In this document: positions 5,791 to 32,904 of the stretch, piece after piece
Numbering within the stretch: position 1 is the first letter of the stretch
Layout of the letters: each line of letters starts with the position of its first letter
From: Alphaproteobacteria bacterium
GTDB taxonomy: Bacteria; Pseudomonadota; Alphaproteobacteria; SMXQ01
Direction of reading: 5' to 3'
Assembly: GCA_009380075.1 (NCBI GenBank)
Contig: WHSO01000035.1
Location: 1-34,269 of the forward strand
Length of the DNA stretch: 34,269 nt
Notes under the pieces: generated by a model
What the model was told of the DNA's origin: nothing
The model's input: the letters and a program-made list of their open reading frames with translations, nothing else
Databases searched by the model: none
Program-made: the position numbers and the translations under genes

Positions 5791-7062
5791 ATGAAATCCG
5801 TCCGCGTCAGCCTGATCGCCGCCACCGCCGTCGCCGGTGGCCTCGTCGTTGGCCCTGCCTCGGCCCAGTCGGTCGAGGCGTTCTACAAGGGCAAGGTCAT
5901 GAACCTCTATGTCGGCTCGGCCCCGGGCGGCGGCTACGACACCTACGGCCGCTCCGTCGCCCGCCATATCGGCGACCATATCCCCGGCAACCCCAGCATC
6001 GTGGTCAAGAACATGCCGGGCGCCAGCGGATTGCGCCTCGCCGGCTACATGTACAACGCGGCGAACAAGAGCGGCATCGAAATCGCCGGCATTCACAACA
6101 CCGCCGTCGTCGACCAGCTTCTCGGCAGCAAGGTGCAGTTCGACGCACGCAAGTTCAACTGGCTCGGCAGCGCCAACCAGCTCACCTCCACCTGCGTCGC
6201 ACGGGCGAGCACCGGCATCACGACAATCAAACAGGCGATGGAGAAGGAGCTTCTGGTCGGCGCCACCGGCGCGTCGAGCTCCTCCACCCAGCTCGTCGCC
6301 GCCTTCATGAACAGCCTGACCGGCACCAAGTTCAAGATCATCAAGGGCTATCCCAGCACCTCGTCGGTCTTCCTCGCCATGGAGCGCGGCGAGGTCGGCG
6401 GCCTCTGCGGCATCGGCTGGGACAGCCTGCAGGCCCAGGTGCTGGGGGAGATCAAGGCCGGCAAGATCGTCATCCTGGTCCAGACCGGGACGGTGAAGAA
6501 CCCGGATATCAAGGACGTGCCGCTGGTCCTCGACCTCGCCCGCAATCCGACCGACCGCACGGTGCTGGAGTTCCTGGTGGCACGCCAGTACATGGGCCGG
6601 CCCTACGTCGCGCCGCCGGGCGCCCCGGCGGACCGGGTCGCCGCGCTGCGGGCCGCCTTCATGACGACGATGAACGACCCCGGATTCAAGGCCACGGCGA
6701 AGAAGTCCCGGGTGCCGCTGTCGCCCATTACCGGCCAGCAAGTGCAGGACCACGTCACCAAGCTGTTCGCCATGCCCAGGAGCATCATCGACCGCGCCAA
6801 TGCGGCGACCCAGGTCAACCCCGCCGCCGTCGCCGAAGCGAAGCTCACGTGGAAGACGGCCAAAGGGGCCACCATCGGCGGCGTGAAGAAGCGCAAGCTC
6901 CAGTTCACCGACGGCGGCAAGAAAGTCACCGCCGACCTGTCGGGCACCAGCATCATGGTCAAGGGCAAGAAGGCCAAGCGCAACGCGCTCAAGGCCGGCA
7001 TGGTCTGCGACATCACCTACCTCGGCGACGGCGACGCCGCCGGGAAGGTCACCTGTAATTAA
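5791..7062 (+). CDS. TTT-type (Bug/TctC family) solute-binding protein with extra C-terminal domain
   Basis: A 423-residue exported protein. Residues 1-25 form a signal peptide ending ASAQ. The mature part has Bug/TctC landmarks: SAPGGGYDTYGRSVARH after the first strand, then KNMPGASGLRLAGYMY. Typical members have about 320-330 residues; this one continues for about 70 more. The extra tail (about 350-423) is rich in Lys and beta-strand-like, and ends AKRNALKAGMVCDITYLGDG and VTCN. The binding protein at 14,167-15,489 has a very similar tail. The gene is alone on the plus strand, divergent from the M20-Rieske operon, so its ligand may be that operon's carboxylated substrate; this is inference. 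No TctA/TctB genes adjoin it, so it may share the fused permease at 15,713. Confidence 0.86.
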   Translation: MKSVRVSLIAATAVAGGLVVGPASAQSVEAFYKGKVMNLYVGSAPGGGYDTYGRSVARHIGDHIPGNPSIVVKNMPGASGLRLAGYMYNAANKSGIEIAGIHNTAVVDQLLGSKVQFDARKFNWLGSANQLTSTCVARASTGITTIKQAMEKELLVGATGASSSSTQLVAAFMNSLTGTKFKIIKGYPSTSSVFLAMERGEVGGLCGIGWDSLQAQVLGEIKAGKIVILVQTGTVKNPDIKDVPLVLDLARNPTDRTVLEFLVARQYMGRPYVAPPGAPADRVAALRAAFMTTMNDPGFKATAKKSRVPLSPITGQQVQDHVTKLFAMPRSIIDRANAATQVNPAAVAEAKLTWKTAKGATIGGVKKRKLQFTDGGKKVTADLSGTSIMVKGKKAKRNALKAGMVCDITYLGDGDAAGKVTCN

Positions 7063-7087
7063 CGCCGGCGCGCGCCGGCGCGGCATG

Positions 7088-7120
7088 AAAAAAGGGCGGG
7101 GACCCGCGGGTCCCGCCCTT
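7088..7120 (-). terminator. Rho-independent terminator (minus strand)
   Basis: A GC-rich hairpin covers 7,092-7,120 (AAGGGCGGG arm against CCCGCCCTT, one bulged G). It is followed in minus-strand reading by six T residues (A at 7,088-7,093 on plus). It suits the NicX-like gene ending at 7,151 and can also act against transcription arriving from 7,062. An 18-base perfect palindrome, CGCCGGCGCGCGCCGGCG, sits just beside it at 7,063-7,080. Confidence 0.8.
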
Positions 7121-7150
7121 GTCGTTCTGCCTCCGCTGTGCGCCCAGGGC

Positions 7151-8338
7151 CTATTGCGCGAAGGACTCCAGCAGTTCCACCGGATCGCCGTAGCGGCGGG
7201 CGGCCGCGACCACCTTCTCATCACGTAGAGACATCAGAAAACCATTGTCGATCAACGTGGTATTGCCGAGCTTTACAGTGGTGTCGAAGGTCACGAAATC
7301 CATGTGGATGTGGGGCTCTTCCCAGTTGGGGATGGCGCGGCGGAGGTATTCGCTCTCCTTCACGGCGTTGCAGCCGAAGTGCAGCCCGCCTGGCGAATTG
7401 GGCCCGGCCGGATAGACCTGGAACCGCGGCGCCTTGGGGTTGAAGCCGCAGCCGAGCTCGTTCAGCCGGGCGCCGATCAGGTATTCGCGCAGCGCGTCCG
7501 CCTCGCGCCCGTTGCCATGGATTTTCACGATGAAGTCGTCCTTGAACTCGACCCCGATCTTCTCCTCGAAGGGTCGCGGAAAGCCGACCGCCCACTGGGG
7601 GTAGACGATGCCCTCCATCTCGGCATGGGCGCCGGGCTCGCGCCGGTGAGCGGTGGCACCGTAGAGATTGGGGCCGTGGGTCGGCAGGTAATGGACGTAG
7701 CAGCCGGGCGCATCAGCGGTGTTGATCCCCTTCCAGCGGGTGATGCCGAGGAGGTTCTCGGTCATCTGCGGGGTGAATTTGATGTTGAGGTCGGAGCCGC
7801 GCGGGTCGGTGAAGCGCATGTCGAAGGCAGCGCCGCGCGGGTAGCTGCGCGCGGTGGCGCGGATGATCTCGCCCACCAGGTCGACGGGGAAGCGGGCCTG
7901 GGGCGTGTCCAGCAGGTCGAGGTCGCGGAAGAAGGTGATCTTGACCCAGCGCTGGCCCTTCTCGCGCCGCATCGTGTTGGCGAAGGGGCAGCCGGTCGAG
8001 GCGAACCACGTGGACACCACGAAGTCGCTGTCCTCGACCAAAGGCCGCGCTTCGGCCGGGATTTCGGTGTTGCGGGTGGAATGCCACATGAATTCGCGCA
8101 CCGTTGCGCCGTTGGCCCGGGCGATGCCGGAGATGGCATCGACGACGCGCCGGTCGAGCCTCGGGTCGGTCAGGAAGGCCACTTTCTCGTCGGCGCGGAT
8201 GGCGAAGACGCGGTTCATGTTGGCGATCGCCTGGAAGCGGTTGCGCAATCGCGTCGATTCGGTGACCGTTTCGGACGGCATGGCGGAGGCTGTAGACGAC
8301 GCAAGGATGTCGTCCCGGGTCGGTGGAACGTGGCTCAT
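7151..8338 (-). CDS. NicX/M29-like enzyme (2,5-dihydroxypyridine dioxygenase or aminopeptidase T-type)
   Basis: A 395-residue protein. KVAFLTDPRLDRRVVDAI near residue 52 followed by ANGATVREF matches the N-terminal domain shared by M29 aminopeptidases and NicX, the Fe(II) 2,5-dihydroxypyridine 5,6-dioxygenase. Near the C-terminus HFGCN (His320) and EEPHIHMDF (His343, His345, Asp347) supply a plausible His/His/Asp metal site as in NicX. The N-terminal 30 residues are poorly conserved in character. The ribosome site is GAGGA about nine bases before the ATG. It is divergent from an operon of other likely non-haem iron enzymes, so an oxygenase role fits better than a peptidase role, but the substrate is unknown. 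The gene ends at a clear terminator and appears monocistronic. Confidence 0.68.
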   Translation of the reverse strand: MSHVPPTRDDILASSTASAMPSETVTESTRLRNRFQAIANMNRVFAIRADEKVAFLTDPRLDRRVVDAISGIARANGATVREFMWHSTRNTEIPAEARPLVEDSDFVVSTWFASTGCPFANTMRREKGQRWVKITFFRDLDLLDTPQARFPVDLVGEIIRATARSYPRGAAFDMRFTDPRGSDLNIKFTPQMTENLLGITRWKGINTADAPGCYVHYLPTHGPNLYGATAHRREPGAHAEMEGIVYPQWAVGFPRPFEEKIGVEFKDDFIVKIHGNGREADALREYLIGARLNELGCGFNPKAPRFQVYPAGPNSPGGLHFGCNAVKESEYLRRAIPNWEEPHIHMDFVTFDTTVKLGNTTLIDNGFLMSLRDEKVVAAARRYGDPVELLESFAQ

Positions 8339-8361
8339 GATGGCATTCCTCTTCCGTTTTC

Positions 8362-8377
8362 CGTCATTGGAATGACG
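8362..8377. promoter_or_regulatory. Operator-like inverted repeat CGTCATT-GG-AATGACG
   Basis: A perfect 7-base inverted repeat with a 2-base spacer lies 24 bases upstream of the NicX-like gene start. Its size and symmetry are typical of a site for a dimeric repressor, for instance of the GntR, MarR or TetR type. No regulator gene of those classes is in the window. Confidence 0.4.
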
Positions 8378-8651
8378 CTACCATGCCACGAACGGGCGTT
8401 GAATAGGGTGCCGAACGGGCATTGGACCCGGCACAGGGAGAGCAAAAGGATACGTTGGGGGAGCCCCACAGGCCGTAATCGACGCCAGTCCCGGCGGTGC
8501 CCCATGCCCTCGCCGAGCGGTCCCACGATGCCGTCTGCGTCGATTCATGAAGTTTAATATCTACAGGATGGACAATTAACTGTTTCTCTTTCTGCCGTAG
8601 CGGGAATTTTGTCGCCGACGCCTGCCTCGCCCCGGCCTCCTGCCCTTGCGA

Positions 8652-8695
8652 GAAAGGCCGTTTCGGAAAATAATGCAATAGACGAAACGCCTTTC
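8652..8695. promoter_or_regulatory. Long inverted repeat upstream of the HDO-bicupin operon
   Basis: GAAAGGCCGTTTCG (8,652-8,665) and CGAAACGCCTTTC (8,683-8,695) are complementary except for one bulged C. The AT-rich 17-base spacer contains a -10-like TAATGCAATA. It lies about 110 bases before the HDO gene start. It may be an operator over a promoter or a leader hairpin. Confidence 0.42.
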
Positions 8696-8806
8696 GAAAT
8701 TCATCAATCCGGCCCCATGGGGTAACCTGCCGCCCGGGGACGGGGGCGCCTCGCGGCAAGCCAGGGACGCCCGGATCGAACCTCGCCATTCCCAAGGAGA
8801 AACCCG

Positions 8807-25564: not shown

Positions 25565-25804
25565 CGCCGGAGTCCTCTTGCGGCTTTTCCCAATGACGAC
25601 AGTTAAATTTGCAGGGGCCTGAGGGTCAAATTACAGGGAATCAAGTTCTTGTGATGTGGCACAAGAAGTATGGGTTTTCCTGGGCAAACACCGTAGATTG
25701 CTTCGGAATTCGGACCGACGTTGTCATGGGATAATCCGGGGCGCAAGAATTCGGTACACGCGGAATGTCAATCACGCCTTCACGTACAAAAAGGGAGCCA
25801 GAAA

Positions 25805-26338
25805 ATGCCGTTCATGAAATCACTGCCTGACACCGCCAACGTGCGCGAGATCTTTGGCCTCAAGCCCGAATTGCGCCGTGCGCACGGGGAGATGGGCCGG
25901 ATTATCATGCGCGGCGATTCCGAACTCACGCCGGCCGAGCGAGAGACCATCGCCGCCTACGTGTCCCGCATCAACCGATGCGACTATTGCTACGGCGGAC
26001 ATTCGGAACTGGCGAAGAGCCTAGGAGCCAACTCAAGCATTTTCGAGAATATGTTCGACGATGTGGATGCTGTGCCCGTATCGGAAAAACTGAAGCCCAT
26101 CCTGCAGTTCGCCAATGTGCTCACGTTGCAGCCAGGCAAAGTGAGCCAGGCCCATGCCGATGCGGTATATGCGGCAGGCTGGAGCGAGAAGGCACTTCAT
26201 GACGCGATACTGGTTATCTGCCGCTTCAATTTCATGAATCGGCTGACCCTCGGGCATGGGCTTGACCCTGCGCCGGAGAATTTCGAAAAGCGCGCGGCAA
26301 GCATGGCCTACAGCACAGGTCCTCAAGGCAAAGAGTAA
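25805..26338 (+). CDS. AhpD-like carboxymuconolactone decarboxylase-family peroxidase, copy 1
   Basis: A 177-residue protein of the AhpD/CMD fold. The redox motif is ERETIAAYVSRINRCDYCYGGH, giving Glu, Cys-x2-Cys and His as in AhpD-type thiol hydroperoxidases. The second half has the usual NVLTLQP and DAILVICRFNFMNRL segments of the peroxidase-related (YciW-like) subgroup. The start ATG is preceded by GGGAG; an earlier in-frame ATG at 25,721 has no such site. It is the first of three homologous genes in a row, all on plus. The family reduces peroxides or acts as an alkylhydroperoxidase with an external thiol donor. It lacks the last 20 residues present in copy 2. Confidence 0.85.
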   Translation: MPFMKSLPDTANVREIFGLKPELRRAHGEMGRIIMRGDSELTPAERETIAAYVSRINRCDYCYGGHSELAKSLGANSSIFENMFDDVDAVPVSEKLKPILQFANVLTLQPGKVSQAHADAVYAAGWSEKALHDAILVICRFNFMNRLTLGHGLDPAPENFEKRAASMAYSTGPQGKE

Positions 26339-26373: not shown

Positions 26374-26979
26374 ATGACGTTCATCCCATCCTTTCCTTCG
26401 GACGCAACCGTCAGGACGGTCATGGCCCAGCGGCCTGAGATTTACCGGCATTGGCACCAAGTTGGTGAAGGCATCATGCGTGGCGATTCACCTTTTACGC
26501 CCGGTGAACGGGAGCTGATCGCGGGTTACGTATCAGGACTCAACGCCTGTGCGTACTGTCATGGGGCCCACACGGCCGTGGCGGTGGCCTTCGGCTTCCC
26601 GGAGAGCCTCATGCCCTCGCTGCTCGACAATATCGACGAGGCCCCGATCGATGAAAGAATGAAGCCAGTACTGAAGTTCGTCAGAAAGCTCACCTTGACA
26701 CCCGCGCAAATGACGAAGGCCGATGCCGAGGCCATATTTACCGCCGGATGGGAGGAAATCGCGGTTCACGACGCCGTAGCGGTGTGCTGCTACTTCAACT
26801 TCATGAACCGTCTTGTGTTCGGTCACGGCATCGAGTTCGATCCCGACCCGGACAAGGTCCGTATGTTGGCGGAGAGGAAAAAACAACTGGGCTACGCGAA
26901 CAGGGATGACCTTCCTGAGGACCATCCGCTGGTACGGAAGGTTCGCGCAGGAAAAGAAGCAATCAGCTCATCCAGTTAA
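26374..26979 (+). CDS. AhpD-like carboxymuconolactone decarboxylase-family peroxidase, copy 2
   Basis: A 201-residue homolog of the preceding protein. The redox motif is ELIAGYVSGLNACAYCHGAH with both cysteines. It has a longer C-terminal tail than the others (from about residue 160: DPDPDKVRMLAERKKQLGYA). The gap to copy 1 is 35 bases and the ribosome site is weak, which suggests coupled translation. It is closer to copy 3 than to copy 1 in the motif region and in the following AVAFGFPE segment, so copies 2 and 3 look like the more recent duplication. Likely role: thiol-dependent peroxide or reactive-electrophile detoxification. Confidence 0.85.
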   Translation: MTFIPSFPSDATVRTVMAQRPEIYRHWHQVGEGIMRGDSPFTPGERELIAGYVSGLNACAYCHGAHTAVAVAFGFPESLMPSLLDNIDEAPIDERMKPVLKFVRKLTLTPAQMTKADAEAIFTAGWEEIAVHDAVAVCCYFNFMNRLVFGHGIEFDPDPDKVRMLAERKKQLGYANRDDLPEDHPLVRKVRAGKEAISSSS

Positions 26980-27003: not shown

Positions 27004-27576
27004 ATGCCATTCATGAAATCTTTTCCTGAAGAGTCCGAAATCGGCGATGTGTATCGATTCGATTCTTTCATTTGGCATCCTTTTGGCGAATTTTCCAGGA
27101 AGCTTATGCGCGGTCCCTCTCCCCTGACACCAGGTGAACGAGAACTGATTGCGGGTTACGTCTCCGGGCTCAACGCCTGCGAATTCTGTCACGGGGCGCA
27201 TACGGCCGCCGCCGTCGCGTTCGGCTTCCCCGAGGACCTGATGCCGAAACTGCTCGATAACGTCGATACGGCGCCGGTGCCGGAAAAGCTGCGGCCCATT
27301 CTCAAATTCGTCAAGAAGCTGACCCTGACGCCGGCCAGAATGGTCCAGGCCGACGCCGATGCGGTTTTCGCCGCCGGCTGGACTGAAGCCGCACTCCATC
27401 ACGCCATCGCGGTCGCAGCCCGATACAACCTCGTCAACCGCCTCATCCACGGGCACGGTATCGGGGCCAATCCGGACACGTTCCGGGCGCGGGGGGCACA
27501 CATCGCAGGCAAGACCGGGGATAATTGGAAGGAGAACGAGAGCGTCCTCGATCGCCAAGGCCAGGAAAAGGGCTAA
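27004..27576 (+). CDS. AhpD-like carboxymuconolactone decarboxylase-family peroxidase, copy 3
   Basis: A 190-residue homolog. The redox motif is ELIAGYVSGLNACEFCHGAH. The opening MPFMKSFPEESEI resembles copy 1 (MPFMKSLPDTANV), while the middle resembles copy 2, so the trio may have exchanged segments. It begins 24 bases after copy 2 with GAGAGG as ribosome site. It converges on the DUF3179 gene with a 50-base gap and no visible terminator. The function is expected to be as for the other copies; keeping three suggests different partners or peroxides. Confidence 0.85.
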   Translation: MPFMKSFPEESEIGDVYRFDSFIWHPFGEFSRKLMRGPSPLTPGERELIAGYVSGLNACEFCHGAHTAAAVAFGFPEDLMPKLLDNVDTAPVPEKLRPILKFVKKLTLTPARMVQADADAVFAAGWTEAALHHAIAVAARYNLVNRLIHGHGIGANPDTFRARGAHIAGKTGDNWKENESVLDRQGQEKG

Positions 27577-27626: not shown

Positions 27627-28688
27627 TTATTTCTTCCACGGCATGGGGCCGTTGACCGTAAACAGCACCCCCTCGGGACGGAACGCGTAGAAAACGAAAG
27701 CAAACGTCACGTCATAGACGACATCCTCAAGTGCCCCGTCGGGGTTACGACGTTGTGCGACGACGTTGCCGATGTCCCGCCCTTTCGCAATTTCCGACGC
27801 ATCGAGTGCCGAGGCGTTCCCGGCCTGCCACGACAGCTCAAGGTTCCCTACCTGTATTCGGCCTTCCCTGCGCAACAGTTCCAGCGTCCACGCCCTTTCG
27901 CCCACGGCGACGACGTACGCCATGGCCGGCACCTTGTCGTGAAGCGGGCCGGAAAAGAAGGCGGGCGCCGCCGATGCATCGTAACCGACATAGGGATTTT
28001 GGCCATATCGCCTCAGGTCCGGCTCGGAGGGGACGAGGACCTGCCCCTTGGGAGTCCGAGCCCTGAACCGGTCGAAAGATTCGAGGCGCGAAGGGATCAT
28101 CCTGAGGCGTTTTCCCGTCATTGTCCCGACAATGGCTTCGCCGCTGAACTGCTGCCACCAGCTTTCCGTTTGCCGGTCATACATGACAAGGTCGGAGTGA
28201 CGGAGTTTCCCCGTCGTACCAAAGTCGAGATCGCGCCCGTCAACGCGCCTCTCGAATACGATCGCCGCGTTGCACAACGGACAATACGTGACAGCCACCG
28301 GAACGCCCCCGAGCGTATCGTTGACGATCTCGTGCCAGGTGAGGATACGCAACGGATAGGCTTTGGATTCGCCATTGATGGTAAGACCGATAACGGGATC
28401 CCGCGACGACAGGTCCTGCACCTGTTCGACATCGACGAAAGCGGGCTGGTCGATCGCGGGGATACCATCCCTCGGGGGACCACCGGAACGCACCTCGTCG
28501 AGAGGCACGGAAAACCGCGTAAAATCGGTCCGGGGCCATTCCATGACCCAGGAACGCGGCGCCGCCGGAGCCTGGAGCGCAATCACGGCGACCGTGACGA
28601 ATCCGAGCACCGCGCTCAGGATCGTCACTGCGCTGATTTTCGTCCGTTTCCGCATCGCGAATGTCCATTCAATGCCCGGAACGATCAT
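27627..28688 (-). CDS. DUF3179 domain-containing protein, membrane-anchored
   Basis: A 353-residue protein with a hydrophobic segment near residues 20-42 (VTILSAVLGFVTVAVIAL) that acts as signal anchor. The rest is DUF3179: KAYPLRILTWHEIVNDTLGG, the conserved VTYCPLCNAAIVFER, then RHSDLVMYDRQTESWWQQF and GEAIVG. The C-P-L-C pair suggests a metal or redox role, but the family function is unknown to me. Two ATG starts are possible (28,688 and 28,655) and neither has a strong ribosome site; the longer is given. The gene lies 22 bases after the OmpR-type regulator gene and is probably the last gene of the P460 operon. Confidence 0.84.
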   Translation of the reverse strand: MIVPGIEWTFAMRKRTKISAVTILSAVLGFVTVAVIALQAPAAPRSWVMEWPRTDFTRFSVPLDEVRSGGPPRDGIPAIDQPAFVDVEQVQDLSSRDPVIGLTINGESKAYPLRILTWHEIVNDTLGGVPVAVTYCPLCNAAIVFERRVDGRDLDFGTTGKLRHSDLVMYDRQTESWWQQFSGEAIVGTMTGKRLRMIPSRLESFDRFRARTPKGQVLVPSEPDLRRYGQNPYVGYDASAAPAFFSGPLHDKVPAMAYVVAVGERAWTLELLRREGRIQVGNLELSWQAGNASALDASEIAKGRDIGNVVAQRRNPDGALEDVVYDVTFAFVFYAFRPEGVLFTVNGPMPWKK

Positions 28689-28710: not shown

Positions 28711-29391
28711 TCAGCTCGCCAGGCGATATCCATCCTTTTCGGTGACGATCAATGGTGTGGCCATGCGGTCCTGTCCTATCTTCTGACGCAAGCGGAAGAC
28801 GTGGGATTCAATGGTGTGGGTTTCGATATCCGACCTATAGCCCCAGACCTCCTTGAGAAGGCGACTTTGGCTTACAGCCCGACCGCGTGTTCTGTAGAGG
28901 TACTTGAGAAGACGGGTCTCTTTGTCGGTCAGGCGGATCTGTTTGCCATCTGAACCGACCAAAAGCTTTTCTGCGGAAACGAGGACGAACGGCCCCATCC
29001 TGATGACCGCATCTTCGGACAGATCATGCTGTCGGAGGTGCGCGCGCAATCGCGCCAGCAGGATGCCGAGCGTGAAAGGTTTCGTAATGTAATCGTTTGC
29101 ACCGGCATCCAGCGCCAGAATCTGATCAGCCTCCGAATCGCCGGAAGCCAATATGACGACGGGCCGGAAGAATCCTTCTCGCCGAACGAGGCGGCATAAT
29201 TCGCGCCCATCCATGCCTGTCAGATCGAGACTTATAAATGCAGCATCGAAATGCCGTTGCTGCATCGCGTCCAAGGCCTCCCGCCCCGTCGAAGCGGCCA
29301 GCACCTCCATACCTTCATGCAGGGAAAGTTGTTCCGCCAAGCTGCGGGCGAACTCTCGATCGTCGTCAACGATGAGAATACTTTTTGTCAT
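28711..29391 (-). CDS. OmpR/PhoB-family response regulator
   Basis: A 226-residue two-domain regulator. The receiver (1-120) has IVDDDRE, the acceptor Asp in SLDLTGMDG, and Lys in DYITKPF. The winged-helix effector (about 130-226) has IRLTDKETRLLKYL, RGRAVSQSRLLKEVWGY and THTIESHVFRLRQKIG, the standard DNA-recognition region. It closely resembles the shorter receiver protein at 25,199, which has lost or never had such an effector. The gene sits between the cytochrome P460 gene (68 bp upstream) and the DUF3179 gene. No histidine kinase is encoded in the window, so its input is unknown; it may control this operon. Confidence 0.92.
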   Translation of the reverse strand: MTKSILIVDDDREFARSLAEQLSLHEGMEVLAASTGREALDAMQQRHFDAAFISLDLTGMDGRELCRLVRREGFFRPVVILASGDSEADQILALDAGANDYITKPFTLGILLARLRAHLRQHDLSEDAVIRMGPFVLVSAEKLLVGSDGKQIRLTDKETRLLKYLYRTRGRAVSQSRLLKEVWGYRSDIETHTIESHVFRLRQKIGQDRMATPLIVTEKDGYRLAS

Positions 29392-29459: not shown

Positions 29460-30233
29460 CTAGCGCTTCACCCGAAACGGCTCCGGCATGAAGAAGGCTT
29501 GCGACTTTCCGGCGGCCTGGTGGCAGGCCGCGCAGAACGTCACGTTCTCGTTCCCGCGTCCCTTGGTAACGCCGATGACGGAACCGTCGGGTCCGATCAG
29601 CGTGTATTTCCAGTCGGCGCTCTCGGCATTAAAGCCGGTCGGCATCTTTTCCATGAGGAAAAGTGGCCCCGCGGCCGCCTTTCCTGCCGACTGCACCATC
29701 ATGCTGTCCTTGGCGAGAATGGAACCGACAGGCAGAACCAGGTCTTGCTCGTACTTGCCGTAATCCCGCGCGATATCGTTGGCATAGTTATTGACGAAGC
29801 GATTTCCGTGGGTTTCGGAGGGATAGGGCGCAACGTTGTAGCGACGCCAAGTCTGATACTGTCCCGCGACTGCCAGTCCAGATCTCGCGTATCCGCGCGA
29901 CAGATTCGCCTTGAGCCCCTGGTAAAGCTTGGTGGCCTGCGCGTTGGTCACTTTGACAGCCTTGGCCGGTGCGCATGGGTTGGCACCGCATGGATTCGCC
30001 GCCCCGCAGGGATTCGCCGCCGGGGCACAGGGATTGGCGCGTGGGGCGCAAGGATTTGCCGCCTTGGGAGCACAGGGATTCGCCGCCTTCGGCGCGCAGG
30101 GATTGACCGCCCTGGGAGCGCAGGGATTGGCGCGGCGTGGACCGCACTGGGCCAGGGCGCCCGTCATCCCGACGCCCGCGGCAATAGCAACGGCAGCCCC
30201 AAGCAATCGGGCCTTATTGATATTACGTTCCAT
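29460..30233 (-). CDS. Cytochrome P460-family protein with N-terminal NPC repeats
   Basis: A 257-residue secreted protein. Residues 1-29 are a signal peptide ending GALAQ. Residues 36-89 hold eight NPC units with spacing shrinking from eight to five residues. The cytochrome P460 domain (about 95-257) has YNVAPYPSETHGNRFVNNYA, KYEQDLVLPVGSILAKDS, GPLFLMEKMPTGFN and the haem c motif C234-A-A-C237-H238. P460 cytochromes bind a haem cross-linked to lysine and can oxidise hydroxylamine; family members of this subgroup are mostly untested. The NPC region also occurs alone in the protein encoded just upstream. AAGGA precedes the ATG by about nine bases. The repeats might bind metal, form disulphides or mediate assembly with the upstream protein. 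Confidence 0.86.
   Translation of the reverse strand: MERNINKARLLGAAVAIAAGVGMTGALAQCGPRRANPCAPRAVNPCAPKAANPCAPKAANPCAPRANPCAPAANPCGAANPCGANPCAPAKAVKVTNAQATKLYQGLKANLSRGYARSGLAVAGQYQTWRRYNVAPYPSETHGNRFVNNYANDIARDYGKYEQDLVLPVGSILAKDSMMVQSAGKAAAGPLFLMEKMPTGFNAESADWKYTLIGPDGSVIGVTKGRGNENVTFCAACHQAAGKSQAFFMPEPFRVKR
29967..30128 (-). repeat. NPC-repeat coding region of the P460 gene
   Basis: The DNA codes for eight units beginning Asn-Pro-Cys, with consecutive start residues 36, 44, 52, 60, 67, 74, 80 and 85. The first three units are almost identical at the protein level (NPCAPxA). Unequal repeat length shows decay or expansion by slippage. Confidence 0.85.
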
Positions 30234-30283
30234 TGTGGCCTGTCCTTTCCTCTTCGACGTATCCTTTGCGCCCCGTCACCGGA

Positions 30284-30343
30284 CTACCGGCGCTTCGCGC
30301 CATAGGGATTCTTGGCGCCACAGGGATTCTTGCTTGAATCAGC
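30284..30343 (-). pseudogene. Out-of-frame remnant of NPC-repeat C-terminus
   Basis: Right after the stop codon of the NPC-repeat gene, a different minus-strand frame reads ADSSKNPCGAKNPYGAKRR and then TAG. These are two further repeat units of the same protein, shifted by one base relative to the gene. The simplest reading is a one-base deletion near 30,346-30,351 that created the present stop. Confidence 0.6.
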
Positions 30344-30345
30344 CG

Positions 30346-30621
30346 CTATTCGGACTGGTCTTCGCGGGGCTCCTTGGCGCCACCTGATGTTACGGGATTC
30401 TTAGCGCCACAGGGATTCTTGGCGGCGCAGGGGTTCTTGGCGGCGCAGGGGTTCTTAGCGGCACAAGGATTTTTCGGCGCGCAAGGGTTCTGTGCCCCGC
30501 GTGGCGCACATGGATTGGCAGACTGGGCGTTCGCGGGAAGACTGGTCGCCGTGGCAAGCCCGCCCAGCGCAACGGCTGAACCGATAATACCCAGGTATTT
30601 CATCCTCTTTAAGGTCAGCAT
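30346..30621 (-). CDS. Small secreted NPC-repeat protein
   Basis: A 91-residue protein. Residues 1-34 are a signal peptide ending LPANAQS. Residues 36-74 carry six NPC units, four of them in strict hexapeptide register (NPCAPK, three NPCAAK, NPCGAK), followed by a degenerate NPV. Six cysteines and regular lysines give a basic, cysteine-rich mature peptide of about 57 residues. The ATG at 30,621 has AGGAG eight bases upstream; an internal ATG at 30,603 has poor spacing. A GTAACC-N16-CGAA promoter lies 51-77 bases upstream. The P460 gene with similar repeats follows after 112 bp. No domain family is recognised; metal binding or disulphide-linked assembly are guesses. The coding end appears frameshifted. 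Confidence 0.78.
   Translation of the reverse strand: MLTLKRMKYLGIIGSAVALGGLATATSLPANAQSANPCAPRGAQNPCAPKNPCAAKNPCAAKNPCAAKNPCGAKNPVTSGGAKEPREDQSE
30400..30516 (-). repeat. 18-base tandem repeats coding for NPC hexapeptides
   Basis: From about 30,400 to 30,489 the DNA repeats with an 18-base period (AAGAACCCCTGCGCCGCC type), with an irregular first unit up to 30,516. Copies differ by a few silent or conservative changes. There are no unique spacers, so this is a coding minisatellite, not a CRISPR array. Confidence 0.85.
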
Positions 30622-30671
30622 GTCGAATTCTCCTGTTGCGGAGGAACCTCATTGTCCATCCGTAACAACAG

Positions 30672-30698
30672 GTTCGTTGCCGGCCCGCAAAAGGTTAC
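30672..30698 (-). promoter_or_regulatory. ECF (SigF/NrsF-type) promoter of the NPC-repeat gene
   Basis: On the minus strand TGTAACC is followed after exactly 16 bases by CGAAC (GTAACC at 30,698-30,693, CGAA at 30,676-30,673). From memory this is the consensus described for Caulobacter SigF, an ECF factor held by the DUF1109 anti-sigma NrsF. The divergent genes at 30,880 and 31,530 encode just such a pair. The site is well placed for the gene starting at 30,621. I found no second copy upstream of the sigma gene itself. Confidence 0.65.
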
Positions 30699-30879
30699 AT
30701 GCCCTTAATGGTCCTGCCGTCCGTCGGCTGCGGTTTCCGAGTCACCTCCTTAGGCCCTTGTGTTCGAACGAAAATCAGACGACACCGAAAAAATTCCCGG
30801 TGATTTGGAACCAGCTGAGCCTTGGATTTGCCGCCTCACCAGGTGTTTACTTCCCCGTGAACGGCGCGAAGGTTACAAA

Positions 30880-31533
30880 ATGGCTGTTCGCGGCGGCACG
30901 AGACGCGCCCGGCCCGCAGGTCCGACCACGACGGTTCCGCGCATGCATGCTTCGAAGAGGACTGACGTCACCGAGACGGCGGATCGCCTGCACCGCGAAC
31001 TGATGCACGCGGCCCAGGCGGGCGACGGGGACGCGTATGAACGGCTCCTGCGGGACATCGTCCCGCTGCTCCGCAGATACGTGCGCTGGCGTCAGGGTCG
31101 CTGGTCCCGCGAGGAGATCGAGGACGTCGTGCAGGACATCATTGTCTCCGTTCATGTGGCGCGTGCCACCTACGACCCGCGGCGGCCGCTCCGTCCCTGG
31201 CTGCTCGCGATCGCCCGAAACCGGGTCGCGGACGCGGCACGCCGAACGGCACAACGGAGCGCCCATGAAACCGCCGTCGATCCGCTTCCTGAAACCTTTT
31301 CCCGTACCGAAACGAACCTGCATGGTGAGACCCGTGCGGAAATTCTGCTGATGAAGCGCGCGATCGAAGGTCTTTCGGAGAACCAGAGGAGGGCGATCGA
31401 GTTGCTGAAGCTACAGGAGCTCTCCTTGAAGGAGGCATCGGCAGCGACCGGCCTGAGCGTGCCGGCGCTGAAAGTCACGGTACACCGCGCCATCAAGTCG
31501 CTCAGGGCGACGTTTGGACGGGGTACGCCATGA
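30880..31533 (+). CDS. ECF-family RNA polymerase sigma factor
   Basis: A 217-residue sigma factor with only regions 2 and 4. Region 2 (about 52-125) contains EEIEDVVQDIIVSVHVARAT and PLRPWLLAIARNRVADAARR. Region 4 (about 160-212) contains GLSENQRRAIELLKLQELSL and a helix-turn-helix ending VTVHRAIKSLR. The start at 30,880 has AAGG eight bases upstream; alternatives are an earlier in-frame ATG at 30,760 and a later one at 30,943, and the first 30 residues are not conserved in character. The stop overlaps the start of the anti-sigma gene (ATGA). The probable target is the divergent NPC-repeat gene, and possibly the P460 operon. Confidence 0.9.
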   Translation: MAVRGGTRRARPAGPTTTVPRMHASKRTDVTETADRLHRELMHAAQAGDGDAYERLLRDIVPLLRRYVRWRQGRWSREEIEDVVQDIIVSVHVARATYDPRRPLRPWLLAIARNRVADAARRTAQRSAHETAVDPLPETFSRTETNLHGETRAEILLMKRAIEGLSENQRRAIELLKLQELSLKEASAATGLSVPALKVTVHRAIKSLRATFGRGTP

Positions 31534-32189
31534 ACCAGACGGACAACCTGATCCGGCGTCTCGCCGCCGGCTGCGTGGGAACGGCAAGCCTGCCCTCGCC
31601 ACAGCGGCGCATGCTGTCGTGGTTTGCAGCTTCCATTCCCTACGTCGCGCTCGTGGTCCTGGTCATGTCGCCCAGGCCGGACCTGTTCGACAAGGTCATG
31701 GACACCCGGTTCGTGATCGAACAGTCCGGTGCCCTCCTCACGGCACTGACCGCGGCGATGGCGGCTTTCTGTGCCACCATTCCGGGCCTTCCGACCTGGC
31801 GCCTCCTCTTGCCGCTTGCGCCTCTGGCCCTCTGGGTCGGCAGCCTGGGCCAGGGCTGCCTCTCGGCGCTCTTCGAGAGAGGGACGGCGGCGCTGAAGCT
31901 CATGCCCGACCTGATCTGCTTCCCGGCCATCCTGATGGTCAGCCTGCTGCCGGCCATCCTGATGATAACGATGCTCCGTCGCGGGGCGCCGCTGATGCCC
32001 AAGATCACGGTGGCTTACGGTGCCCTGGCCGCGACGGCGCTTGGCAATTTCGGCCTGCGCCTGTTCCATCCGCAGGATGCGAGCCTGATGGTGCTGGTCT
32101 GGCAGTTTGGTACGGTGGTCATCCTCACCGCGTTCGCCAGCCTGTTCGGACGCCGTCTTCTGCGGTGGCGCCACGTTGCCGCCACATGA
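31530..32189 (+). CDS. nrsF: NrsF-like (DUF1109) membrane anti-sigma factor
   Basis: A 219-residue inner-membrane protein with about six hydrophobic segments, among them SWFAASIPYVALVVLVMSP, LAPLALWVGSLGQGCL, and AILMVSLLPAILMITML. This is the DUF1109 pattern known from NrsF, the negative regulator of SigF in Caulobacter. The short cytoplasmic N-terminus (MNQTDNLIRRLAAG) is expected to bind the sigma factor. The ATG overlaps the sigma gene stop by four bases, so the two are made in fixed proportion. In Caulobacter this pair responds to heavy metals and oxidative stress; a similar trigger is likely here but not shown. Confidence 0.85.
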   Translation: MNQTDNLIRRLAAGCVGTASLPSPQRRMLSWFAASIPYVALVVLVMSPRPDLFDKVMDTRFVIEQSGALLTALTAAMAAFCATIPGLPTWRLLLPLAPLALWVGSLGQGCLSALFERGTAALKLMPDLICFPAILMVSLLPAILMITMLRRGAPLMPKITVAYGALAATALGNFGLRLFHPQDASLMVLVWQFGTVVILTAFASLFGRRLLRWRHVAAT

Positions 32190-32226: not shown

Positions 32227-32904
32227 ATGAGCGTACCTCTCCGCAAGAATGAACGCCTTGTCTCCGCCGCCTATGAGGTGATGGAGTGCATGCGCGTGCT
32301 GCACAAGAGCGGCAGCAATCTGGTGGCGGAGGCGCTTCAGAAGAACGAGTTCATCGAGTGGGAGCATTATCCCCCCGACGACGTGTATGACCCGGAATCG
32401 CGGGCTCAATACTATTTTCACGCCCACCCGGTGTCTGAAGTGCGCTTCTCCGATTATGGACACTTTCATACGTTCCTTCGCTTTGACGAAGAGGCCGGAG
32501 GTTCCCGGGGCTCCGGCAATCCGCAAGACCCGAACAGTGGCGGCATCTGCCACATTGTCGGAATCTCGATGACGCGGGAGGGTCTCCCCGAACGGCTGTT
32601 CACGGTCAATCGCTGGGTTACAGGAGAATCCTGGCGTCCCGCGGCCGAGATCACAGAAACGCTTGACCGTTTTGAAATCGACCTGAGTTCGCCGTCCTGG
32701 CCGCTCAATCGCTGGCTCTCGGCGATGGTTGTGCTTTACCGCGCCGAAATCACTGTGTTGCTCAAGGAGCGGGACGAGAGGATTGCGTCCTGGGAAGCCG
32801 CGCATCCAGGCACCGACGTGCTGGAAGACAGAGCGCTGGAAATTACCTCGGCGCTTGAGATTTCCTTGGACCGGAAGATAAAGGCGCTTCAAGCAACCGC
32901 CTGA
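32227..32904 (+). CDS. Uncharacterised 225-residue cytoplasmic protein
   Basis: The gene is convincing by context and composition, but I do not recognise a named function. The protein has no signal peptide or membrane segment. Notable regions are EWEHYPPDDVYDPESRAQYY, then FHAHP and GHFHTFLRF, and GICHIVGISMTREGLPERLF, which has the look of a ligand- or metal-binding His cluster. The C-terminus is helical and charged (VLLKERDERIASWEAAHPG). The ATG at 32,227 has GGGAGG about ten bases upstream; a longer frame to 32,107 overlaps the anti-sigma gene and is unlikely. It starts 37 bases after the NrsF-like gene and precedes the DUF547 gene by 10 bases, so it belongs to the sigma operon. Confidence 0.7.
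   Translation: MSVPLRKNERLVSAAYEVMECMRVLHKSGSNLVAEALQKNEFIEWEHYPPDDVYDPESRAQYYFHAHPVSEVRFSDYGHFHTFLRFDEEAGGSRGSGNPQDPNSGGICHIVGISMTREGLPERLFTVNRWVTGESWRPAAEITETLDRFEIDLSSPSWPLNRWLSAMVVLYRAEITVLLKERDERIASWEAAHPGTDVLEDRALEITSALEISLDRKIKALQATA

Follow-up and report, generated by a model that had tools for sequence, protein, structure and literature searches.

In Caulobacter, the extracytoplasmic function (ECF) sigma factor sigma-F recognizes the promoter GTAACC-N16-CGAA, from which two operons containing DUF2282, DUF692 and DUF2063 genes are transcribed (PMC3511200). This gene set is that of the copper bufferins, for which fusions to formylglycine-generating enzyme (FGE) and to cytochromes are also known (PMC12452194). 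In Brucella, the ECF16 sigma factor BcrS drives a Met-repeat peptide gene from GTAACCTTTTTCCCC..GCGAA, nearly the motif described below (PMC8315932). Here, we analyzed a stretch of 34,269 nucleotides (hereafter the window; contig WHSO01000035.1, assembly GCA_009380075.1) from an Alphaproteobacteria bacterium, in which genes for a small protein with Asn-Pro-Cys (NPC) repeats and for an NPC-bearing cytochrome P460 are divergent from an ECF sigma factor/NrsF pair. A sequence-only reading of this DNA had named these genes together with an OmpR-type regulator and a DUF3179 protein, and all of them were found at their positions; what it had overlooked was a DUF6969 gene behind NrsF and a perfect sigma-F promoter, together with the ties to bufferins, to FGE-like proteins and to sulphur transport. 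On the basis of the comparison below, DUF6969 is the gene that accompanies NPC-type proteins most constantly, and P460 ranks second.

The order to which the window belongs holds only 11 genomes of a single family, and the comparison was therefore made at class level (385 genomes). NPC repeats were sought with a triple-NPC DNA pattern of exact 18-base spacing, a strict condition that undercounts repeat-bearing genomes. The pattern occurred in 36 genomes and its reversed control in none; in one of the 36 (G240), stop codons separate the units, so that there is no protein repeat. The P460 domain was found in 55 genomes, and DUF6969 in 90 (and in none of 14 control genomes). NPC repeats and P460 occurred together in 28 of the 36 genomes (5.1 expected, p=2e-20), across many families and genera, which bears out the co-occurrence that had been anticipated for this pair. 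NPC repeats and DUF6969 did so in 33 (8.4 expected, p=3e-20). It should be noted that these p-values treat genomes as independent, so that kinship inflates their significance, though the matches span many families. In 26 of 35 genomes, an NPC cluster had DUF6969 no more than 6 kb away, and NPC repeats and P460 were for the most part either joined in a single protein or encoded next to each other. NrsF was present in 80 of the 385 genomes, and it adjoined NPC genes in only 3 of 35 (G000, G147 and G374); two further genomes with this arrangement (G014 and G105) carry repeats that escape the strict pattern. Thus, the sigma/NrsF pair beside NPC genes, which had been put forward as the layout of the system, is not supported as a general one, and we rejected the pair as the system core.

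Where the pair does adjoin an NPC gene, the sigma-F motif usually precedes that gene (a locus with NrsF, L162, had no motif match). The window itself has an ECF sigma factor, a PF06532 anti-sigma factor and GTAACC-N16-CGAA, all three marks of the ECF16 sigma-F/NrsF type. Its promoter matches the published motif with zero mismatches, 51 bp ahead of the NPC start codon, in a genome of 3.54 Mb that has five exact copies of the motif and only one NrsF, that in the window. After removal of near-identical duplicates, 188 distinct loci (2.15 Mb) were scanned with a spacing of 15–17, and 11 of the 23 matches lay no more than 420 bp upstream of an NPC gene's first NPC, compared with a mean of 0.13 and a maximum of 3 for 200 permuted motifs. 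A complete plasmid from Skermanella mucosa, an isolate, has the order DUF6969, promoter, NPC protein, DUF302, sigma factor and NrsF. Sigma-F control of the NPC gene, as proposed by the sequence-only reading, is thus supported in the window and in relatives. When the conserved cysteines of NrsF (C129/C131 and C179/C181) were sought, C130 was found to be kept, and residues 179–180 were FH in the window protein and in all ten aligned NrsF proteins, an alignment that leaves the Caulobacter and Brucella proteins outside. The sigma factor may start at a later ATG near 30943. Exact sigma-F motifs were also seen just upstream of an MtrC-like multihaem cytochrome gene (L208 4755-5986, plus strand), whose family occurs in seven NPC loci, and ahead of a patatin-like phospholipase gene (L205 1351-2551, plus strand), where the motif may be there by chance.

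The small NPC protein is hydrophobic at its N-terminus, carries six NPC units (residues 36-71) and has only two Met residues; it matched no Pfam or NCBIfam family above cut-off. The P460 protein carries eight units at residues 36-87, ahead of its C-terminal Cytochrome_P460 domain. The repeats, described earlier as NPC hexapeptides, are real, although the units of the P460 protein are spaced 5-8 residues apart and so are not strict hexapeptides. They are not due to chance: shuffling the repeat residues gave at most three NPC, with a mean of about 0.2, vs the eight and six observed. Judging by eye from the hydrophobic N-termini, both proteins are probably exported to the periplasm. Comparable small NPC proteins are present in dozens of loci, many of them without P460, and the repeats differ greatly in number and sequence (GAC, SPC and APC types). 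The open-access papers that we searched did not describe NPC repeat sequences. Past the NPC stop codon, another frame (30290-30345, minus strand) still encodes SSKNPCGAKNPYGAKRR, and the C-terminus of the protein therefore looks frameshifted, by mutation or assembly error.

The P460 domain scored 29.5 bits against PF16694 (cut-off 27). An AlphaFold2 model of residues 90-257 had P460 and c'-beta structures as its best matches (Z 7.7-11.5, above unrelated rows; Foldseek E 2e-5, with Z 10.8-11.5 across 125-129 residues), which confirmed the P460/c'-beta fold at the level of the model. CxxCH was present in all 39 aligned repeat-bearing members. In NeP460, Lys70 is the cross-link residue and Glu96 the distal carboxylate of hydroxylamine-oxidizing enzymes (PMC11928373). 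The invariant Lys of AKDS aligned with Lys70 and the near-invariant Glu of MEKM with Glu96 (HMMER vs 2je2). This alignment is weak (E about 0.03), and catalytic competence is therefore only predicted. Repeat-less P460 relatives mostly had no DUF6969 nearby, and a plasmid search with the P460 domain gave no match. In five loci (L086, L088, L089, L090 and L091) an insertion splits the P460 match, and in L088 and L089 this insertion is an NPC block inside the domain, besides the N-terminal block. Three P460 proteins (L055, L075 and L078) have GACGAK-type repeats in place of NPC. Long P460-like proteins without CxxCH, possibly haem-free paralogues, adjoin the NPC-P460 gene in L086 (11092-12228) and L089 (12783-13856). 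Of 44 P460 proteins with repeats, 25 (including those of L042, L047 and L073) share a conserved CxVPRL motif, as a rule placed between two blocks of repeats, whereas none of 20 repeat-less ones has it. It resembles, but differs from, the FGE motif CxPxR; a role as FGE target was rejected, as the presence of the motif showed no tie to an FGE-like gene next to it.

The DUF6969 protein of the window matched PF22308 with 249 bits (cut-off 27), and a scan of the genome collection with a DUF6969 alignment found at least 556 relatives. The alignments showed D55, H65, H67, H79, H81, H109 and N128 to be invariant and H47, R129 and R182 invariant or near-invariant, with H47 and P49 forming an HxP motif; the pattern looks like that of a metal site. 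Its AlphaFold model was confident (pLDDT 89.6, pTM 0.88) and had no PDB fold match (Foldseek best E 1.2, VIA-align Z no higher than 3.7), so that no fold was assigned, which does not prove a new fold. A P460 row among the structure matches was weak and was not trusted, and a PDB sequence search gave nothing convincing. The best 80 relatives, fetched by DUF6969 alone and including several near-duplicate Thalassospira loci, came from alpha- and betaproteobacteria (for example, Magnetospirillum, Thalassospira, Azospirillum, Parvularcula, Sulfuritalea and Gallionella). Within 5 kb of DUF6969, these 80 loci had an exported Cys-repeat protein in 46 cases, an FGE-like protein in 34 and P460 in 10. 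More distant DUF6969 genes adjoin genes for exported proteins with Cys repeats of CGG type (L184), GCCAAE type (L186) and SPC type (L195 and L196), and on pSymA of Sinorhizobium meliloti an exported APCAAG-repeat gene lies directly in front of DUF6969 (L290 5613-5984 and L292 4630-5004). Thus, the association of DUF6969 is with exported Cys repeats and not with NPC alone. No mention of DUF6969 was found in the open-access papers searched.

Several loci link the NPC genes to bufferins. In L202, promoter, NPC protein, DUF2282 bufferin and MNIO follow one another on a single strand; L206, which is identical with the L180 locus, has a bufferin operon and, divergent from it, a run of sigma factor, NrsF, promoter, NPC and DUF6969; and in L250 and L260, bufferin operons lie within about 3 kb. 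The window genome also has a canonical bufferin operon, with DUF2282, MNIO and following genes (L280, G000:C134, about 6680-8740), beside which there was no NrsF and no exact sigma-F motif; in the sister genus (G001), NrsF adjoins the bufferin operon.

Other neighbors were compared between 97 NPC loci and 90 other DUF6969 or P460 loci, a background that is not random DNA. Sulf_transp transporters (PF04143) were found in 18 NPC loci vs 3 others, SoxA/TsdA-type cytochromes with flanking NPC repeats in 10 vs 0, multihaem cytochromes in 7 vs 0 and a secreted cupredoxin-like family without Pfam name in 17 vs 1. The SoxA/TsdA-type cytochromes c have NPC repeats on both sides (L228, L247, L250, L251, L252, L261, L273, L276, L278 and L205). 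Members of the unnamed family, such as that of L210 (1932-2438, with 16 other loci), carry IELTQTGCQFLEPEG ... CPLNPTPDY, are weakly cupredoxin-like and adjoin NPC genes. DUF3179 was found in 10 NPC loci vs none of the others, and in L042 the DUF3179 relative has its own sigma-F motif copy; its place in the module, claimed from the window alone, is thus recurrent and confined to a minority of loci. The OmpR regulator, claimed likewise, was not a consistent neighbor of NPC genes in relatives; its membership is doubtful, and it was discarded as a core part. Genes of carboxymuconolactone decarboxylase (CMD)/AhpD type were present in 5 of the 97 NPC loci. FGE-like PF03781 proteins beside NPC genes in relatives are secreted and have an invariant CxxC near the C-terminus; a search of the window genome found no close relative, and the idea that this protein is obligatory was rejected. 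Also set aside were the genes for universal stress proteins and TAXI transporters that lie near P460 loci, as they are equally common without NPC.

The features of the module are given in Table 1. The gaps between genes are short on each strand (112, 68 and 22 bp on the minus strand and 37 bp from NrsF to DUF6969), which makes two divergent operons plausible.

Table 1. Features of the NPC/P460/DUF6969 module and adjoining genes in the window
Feature	Position	Strand	Basis or description
Small exported NPC-repeat protein	30346..30621	-	91 aa, 6 NPC, 6 Cys; open reading frame and repeats
Cytochrome P460 with NPC repeats	29460..30233	-	257 aa; PF16694 and AlphaFold2 model fold
Cys-repeat region of P460 protein	29973..30146	-	8 NPC units, residues 30-87
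P460 haem domain	29463..29966	-	CxxCH; conserved Lys and Glu residues, aligning with Lys70 and Glu96 of NeP460
Sigma-F (ECF16) promoter GTAACC-N16-CGAA	30673..30698	-	Exact match
ECF sigma factor	30880..31533	+	Sigma70_r2 and r4_2
NrsF-family anti-sigma factor	31530..32189	+	PF06532, E=6e-26
DUF6969 protein	32227..32904	+	PF22308, E=4e-74; alignments, co-occurrence, model
DUF3179 protein	27627..28688	-	E=1.5e-88
Response regulator, OmpR-type DNA-binding domain	28711..29391	-	Between P460 and DUF3179 genes
Three tandem CMD/AhpD-type genes	25721-26338, 26374-26979, 27004-27576	+	Facing the module

Taken together, we propose, with about an even chance of being right, that the locus is a sigma-F/NrsF-controlled module for protection of the envelope, in which the repeats would serve as a periplasmic thiol buffer, most likely for copper-like metals, and DUF6969 is a candidate cytosolic Cys-handling enzyme. 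Under stress, NrsF would release the ECF sigma factor, which would transcribe the NPC gene from GTAACC-N16-CGAA, probably with the P460 gene on the same transcript. Export of the NPC protein and of the NPC tail of P460 would place many evenly spaced cysteines in the periplasm as a flexible thiol buffer for thiophilic, copper-like metal ions, and P460 might deal there with a reactive species of nitrogen or oxygen. DUF6969, for which a cytosolic location is probable, could act on the cysteines before export by modification, protection or loading, as MNIO does for bufferins, and in many relatives a periplasmic FGE-like protein may act after export. The sequence-only reading had suggested that the repeats hold copper or haem or form a disulphide network. 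The copper-type idea gains support from the locus and promoter shared with bufferin operons, and all three functions remain putative.

Some observations weigh against this proposal. DUF6969 lacks a structural relative from which catalysis could be deduced, the direct bufferin link is seen in only a few loci, the sigma/NrsF pair adjoins NPC genes in a minority, and about half of the fetched DUF6969 or P460 loci had no NPC repeats nearby. The one MNIO of the window genome is on another contig (G000:C134) with its own DUF2282 precursor, and MNIO modification of the window NPC protein is therefore not implied. In addition, the Sulf_transp enrichment suits sulphur chemistry as well as copper. The NPC cysteines might indeed hold sulphane sulphur as persulphide and in this way connect the uptake of thiosulphate or sulphide with SoxA-type and P460 cytochromes, a reading for which the transporters, the 10 loci with NPC-flanked SoxA/TsdA-type cytochromes and the rhodanese genes in some loci could speak. 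However, rhodanese shows no enrichment (5 and 5), none of the sulphur genes was identified beside the window module, most NPC loci lack them, and the sigma-F regulons known so far suggest metals or oxidants; we consider a sulphur carrier a rival to be kept in view, though quite improbable.

A role as oxidant sink, in which the cysteines would be sacrificed to scavenge hypochlorous acid, peroxide or reactive nitrogen, as with the ECF16-driven MrpX/BcrX, and P460 would remove NO or hydroxylamine, appears to be a serious candidate that we nevertheless think rather unlikely. The Brucella Met-repeat peptide driven by BcrS from nearly the same motif (PMC8315932), the apparent retention of the P460 catalytic residues and the AhpD/CMD genes near the module in the window and in L042 are consistent with it. 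On the other hand, no methionine sulphoxide reductase was among the identified neighbor genes, no dedicated Cys reductase was identified, and direct locus sharing is with bufferins, not with MrpX. The sequence-only reading had also offered assembly of the two proteins; in one form of this idea, a disulphide-linked NPC scaffold would dock P460 to the small protein. The same repeat in both proteins, and its insertion within the P460 domain in several loci, would agree with such a structural role, which leaves DUF6969 and the sigma-F promoter unexplained and sits poorly with widely variable repeats and with the many loci that lack P460; we regard it as very unlikely.

The known targets of NrsF-linked ECF sigma factors, exported Cys bufferins and Met scavengers, would be joined by a third sort, distinguished by far more repeats, by fusions to haem proteins and by an uncharacterized partner family that has a conserved His cluster and no fold match. 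The NPC/DUF6969/P460 set, recurrent in many proteobacteria, looks like a new protective system that absorbs metals or oxidants. DUF6969, with at least 556 loci in one scan, thereby gains a role that can be tested in culturable hosts such as Sinorhizobium meliloti, Skermanella, Azospirillum, Thalassospira and Magnetospirillum. More speculatively, and with the balance leaning against it, DUF6969 might be an MNIO-independent enzyme family that modifies or metal-loads the cysteines of secreted repeat proteins (NPC, SPC, APC, CGG and GCCAAE), founding a large unrecognized bufferin-like class in alpha- and betaproteobacteria, with some members fused to P460 and SoxA-type cytochromes.

Compared with described systems, the module shares with the cytochrome P460/c'-beta superfamily the fold, CxxCH, a cross-link-type Lys and a distal Glu, and adds regions of Cys repeats at the N-terminus and, in some cases, in the interior; the 2025 review of P460 (PMC11928373) nowhere uses the words cysteine-rich, repeat or fusion. 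The PF03781 proteins that adjoin NPC genes in relatives belong with the FGE/SUMF1 family, including PvdO, and differ in being secreted and in their CxxC. MrpX and BcrX, Met-rich scavengers under ECF16 in Azospira and Brucella (PMC8315932), have in common with the module the ECF16 sigma factor, an NrsF-type anti-sigma factor, a matching promoter and a low-complexity, sulphur-rich exported peptide. They have Met repeats, whereas the NPC module has Cys repeats, DUF6969 and P460, and no MsrPQ was among the annotated window genes. Bufferins, copper-chelating ribosomally synthesized and post-translationally modified peptides with DUF2282, Buf2 or Buf_EGKCG precursors, MNIO and DUF2063, are likewise exported multi-Cys proteins under sigma-F/NrsF and the same promoter, and NPC genes are adjacent to or in line with their operons in the four loci described above (L202, L206, L250 and L260). 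In contrast, the DUF2282 signature was absent from the small NPC protein (Pfam and NCBIfam, which do not include the Buf2 and EGKCG profiles of PMC12452194), DUF6969 replaces MNIO in most loci, an MNIO gene next to an NPC precursor being absent from the window and present in only a few relatives such as L202, and P460 is an added partner. Its position, promoter and composition would place the NPC/DUF6969 module as a third ECF16-type case, after bufferins/MNIO and MrpX/BcrX/MsrPQ.

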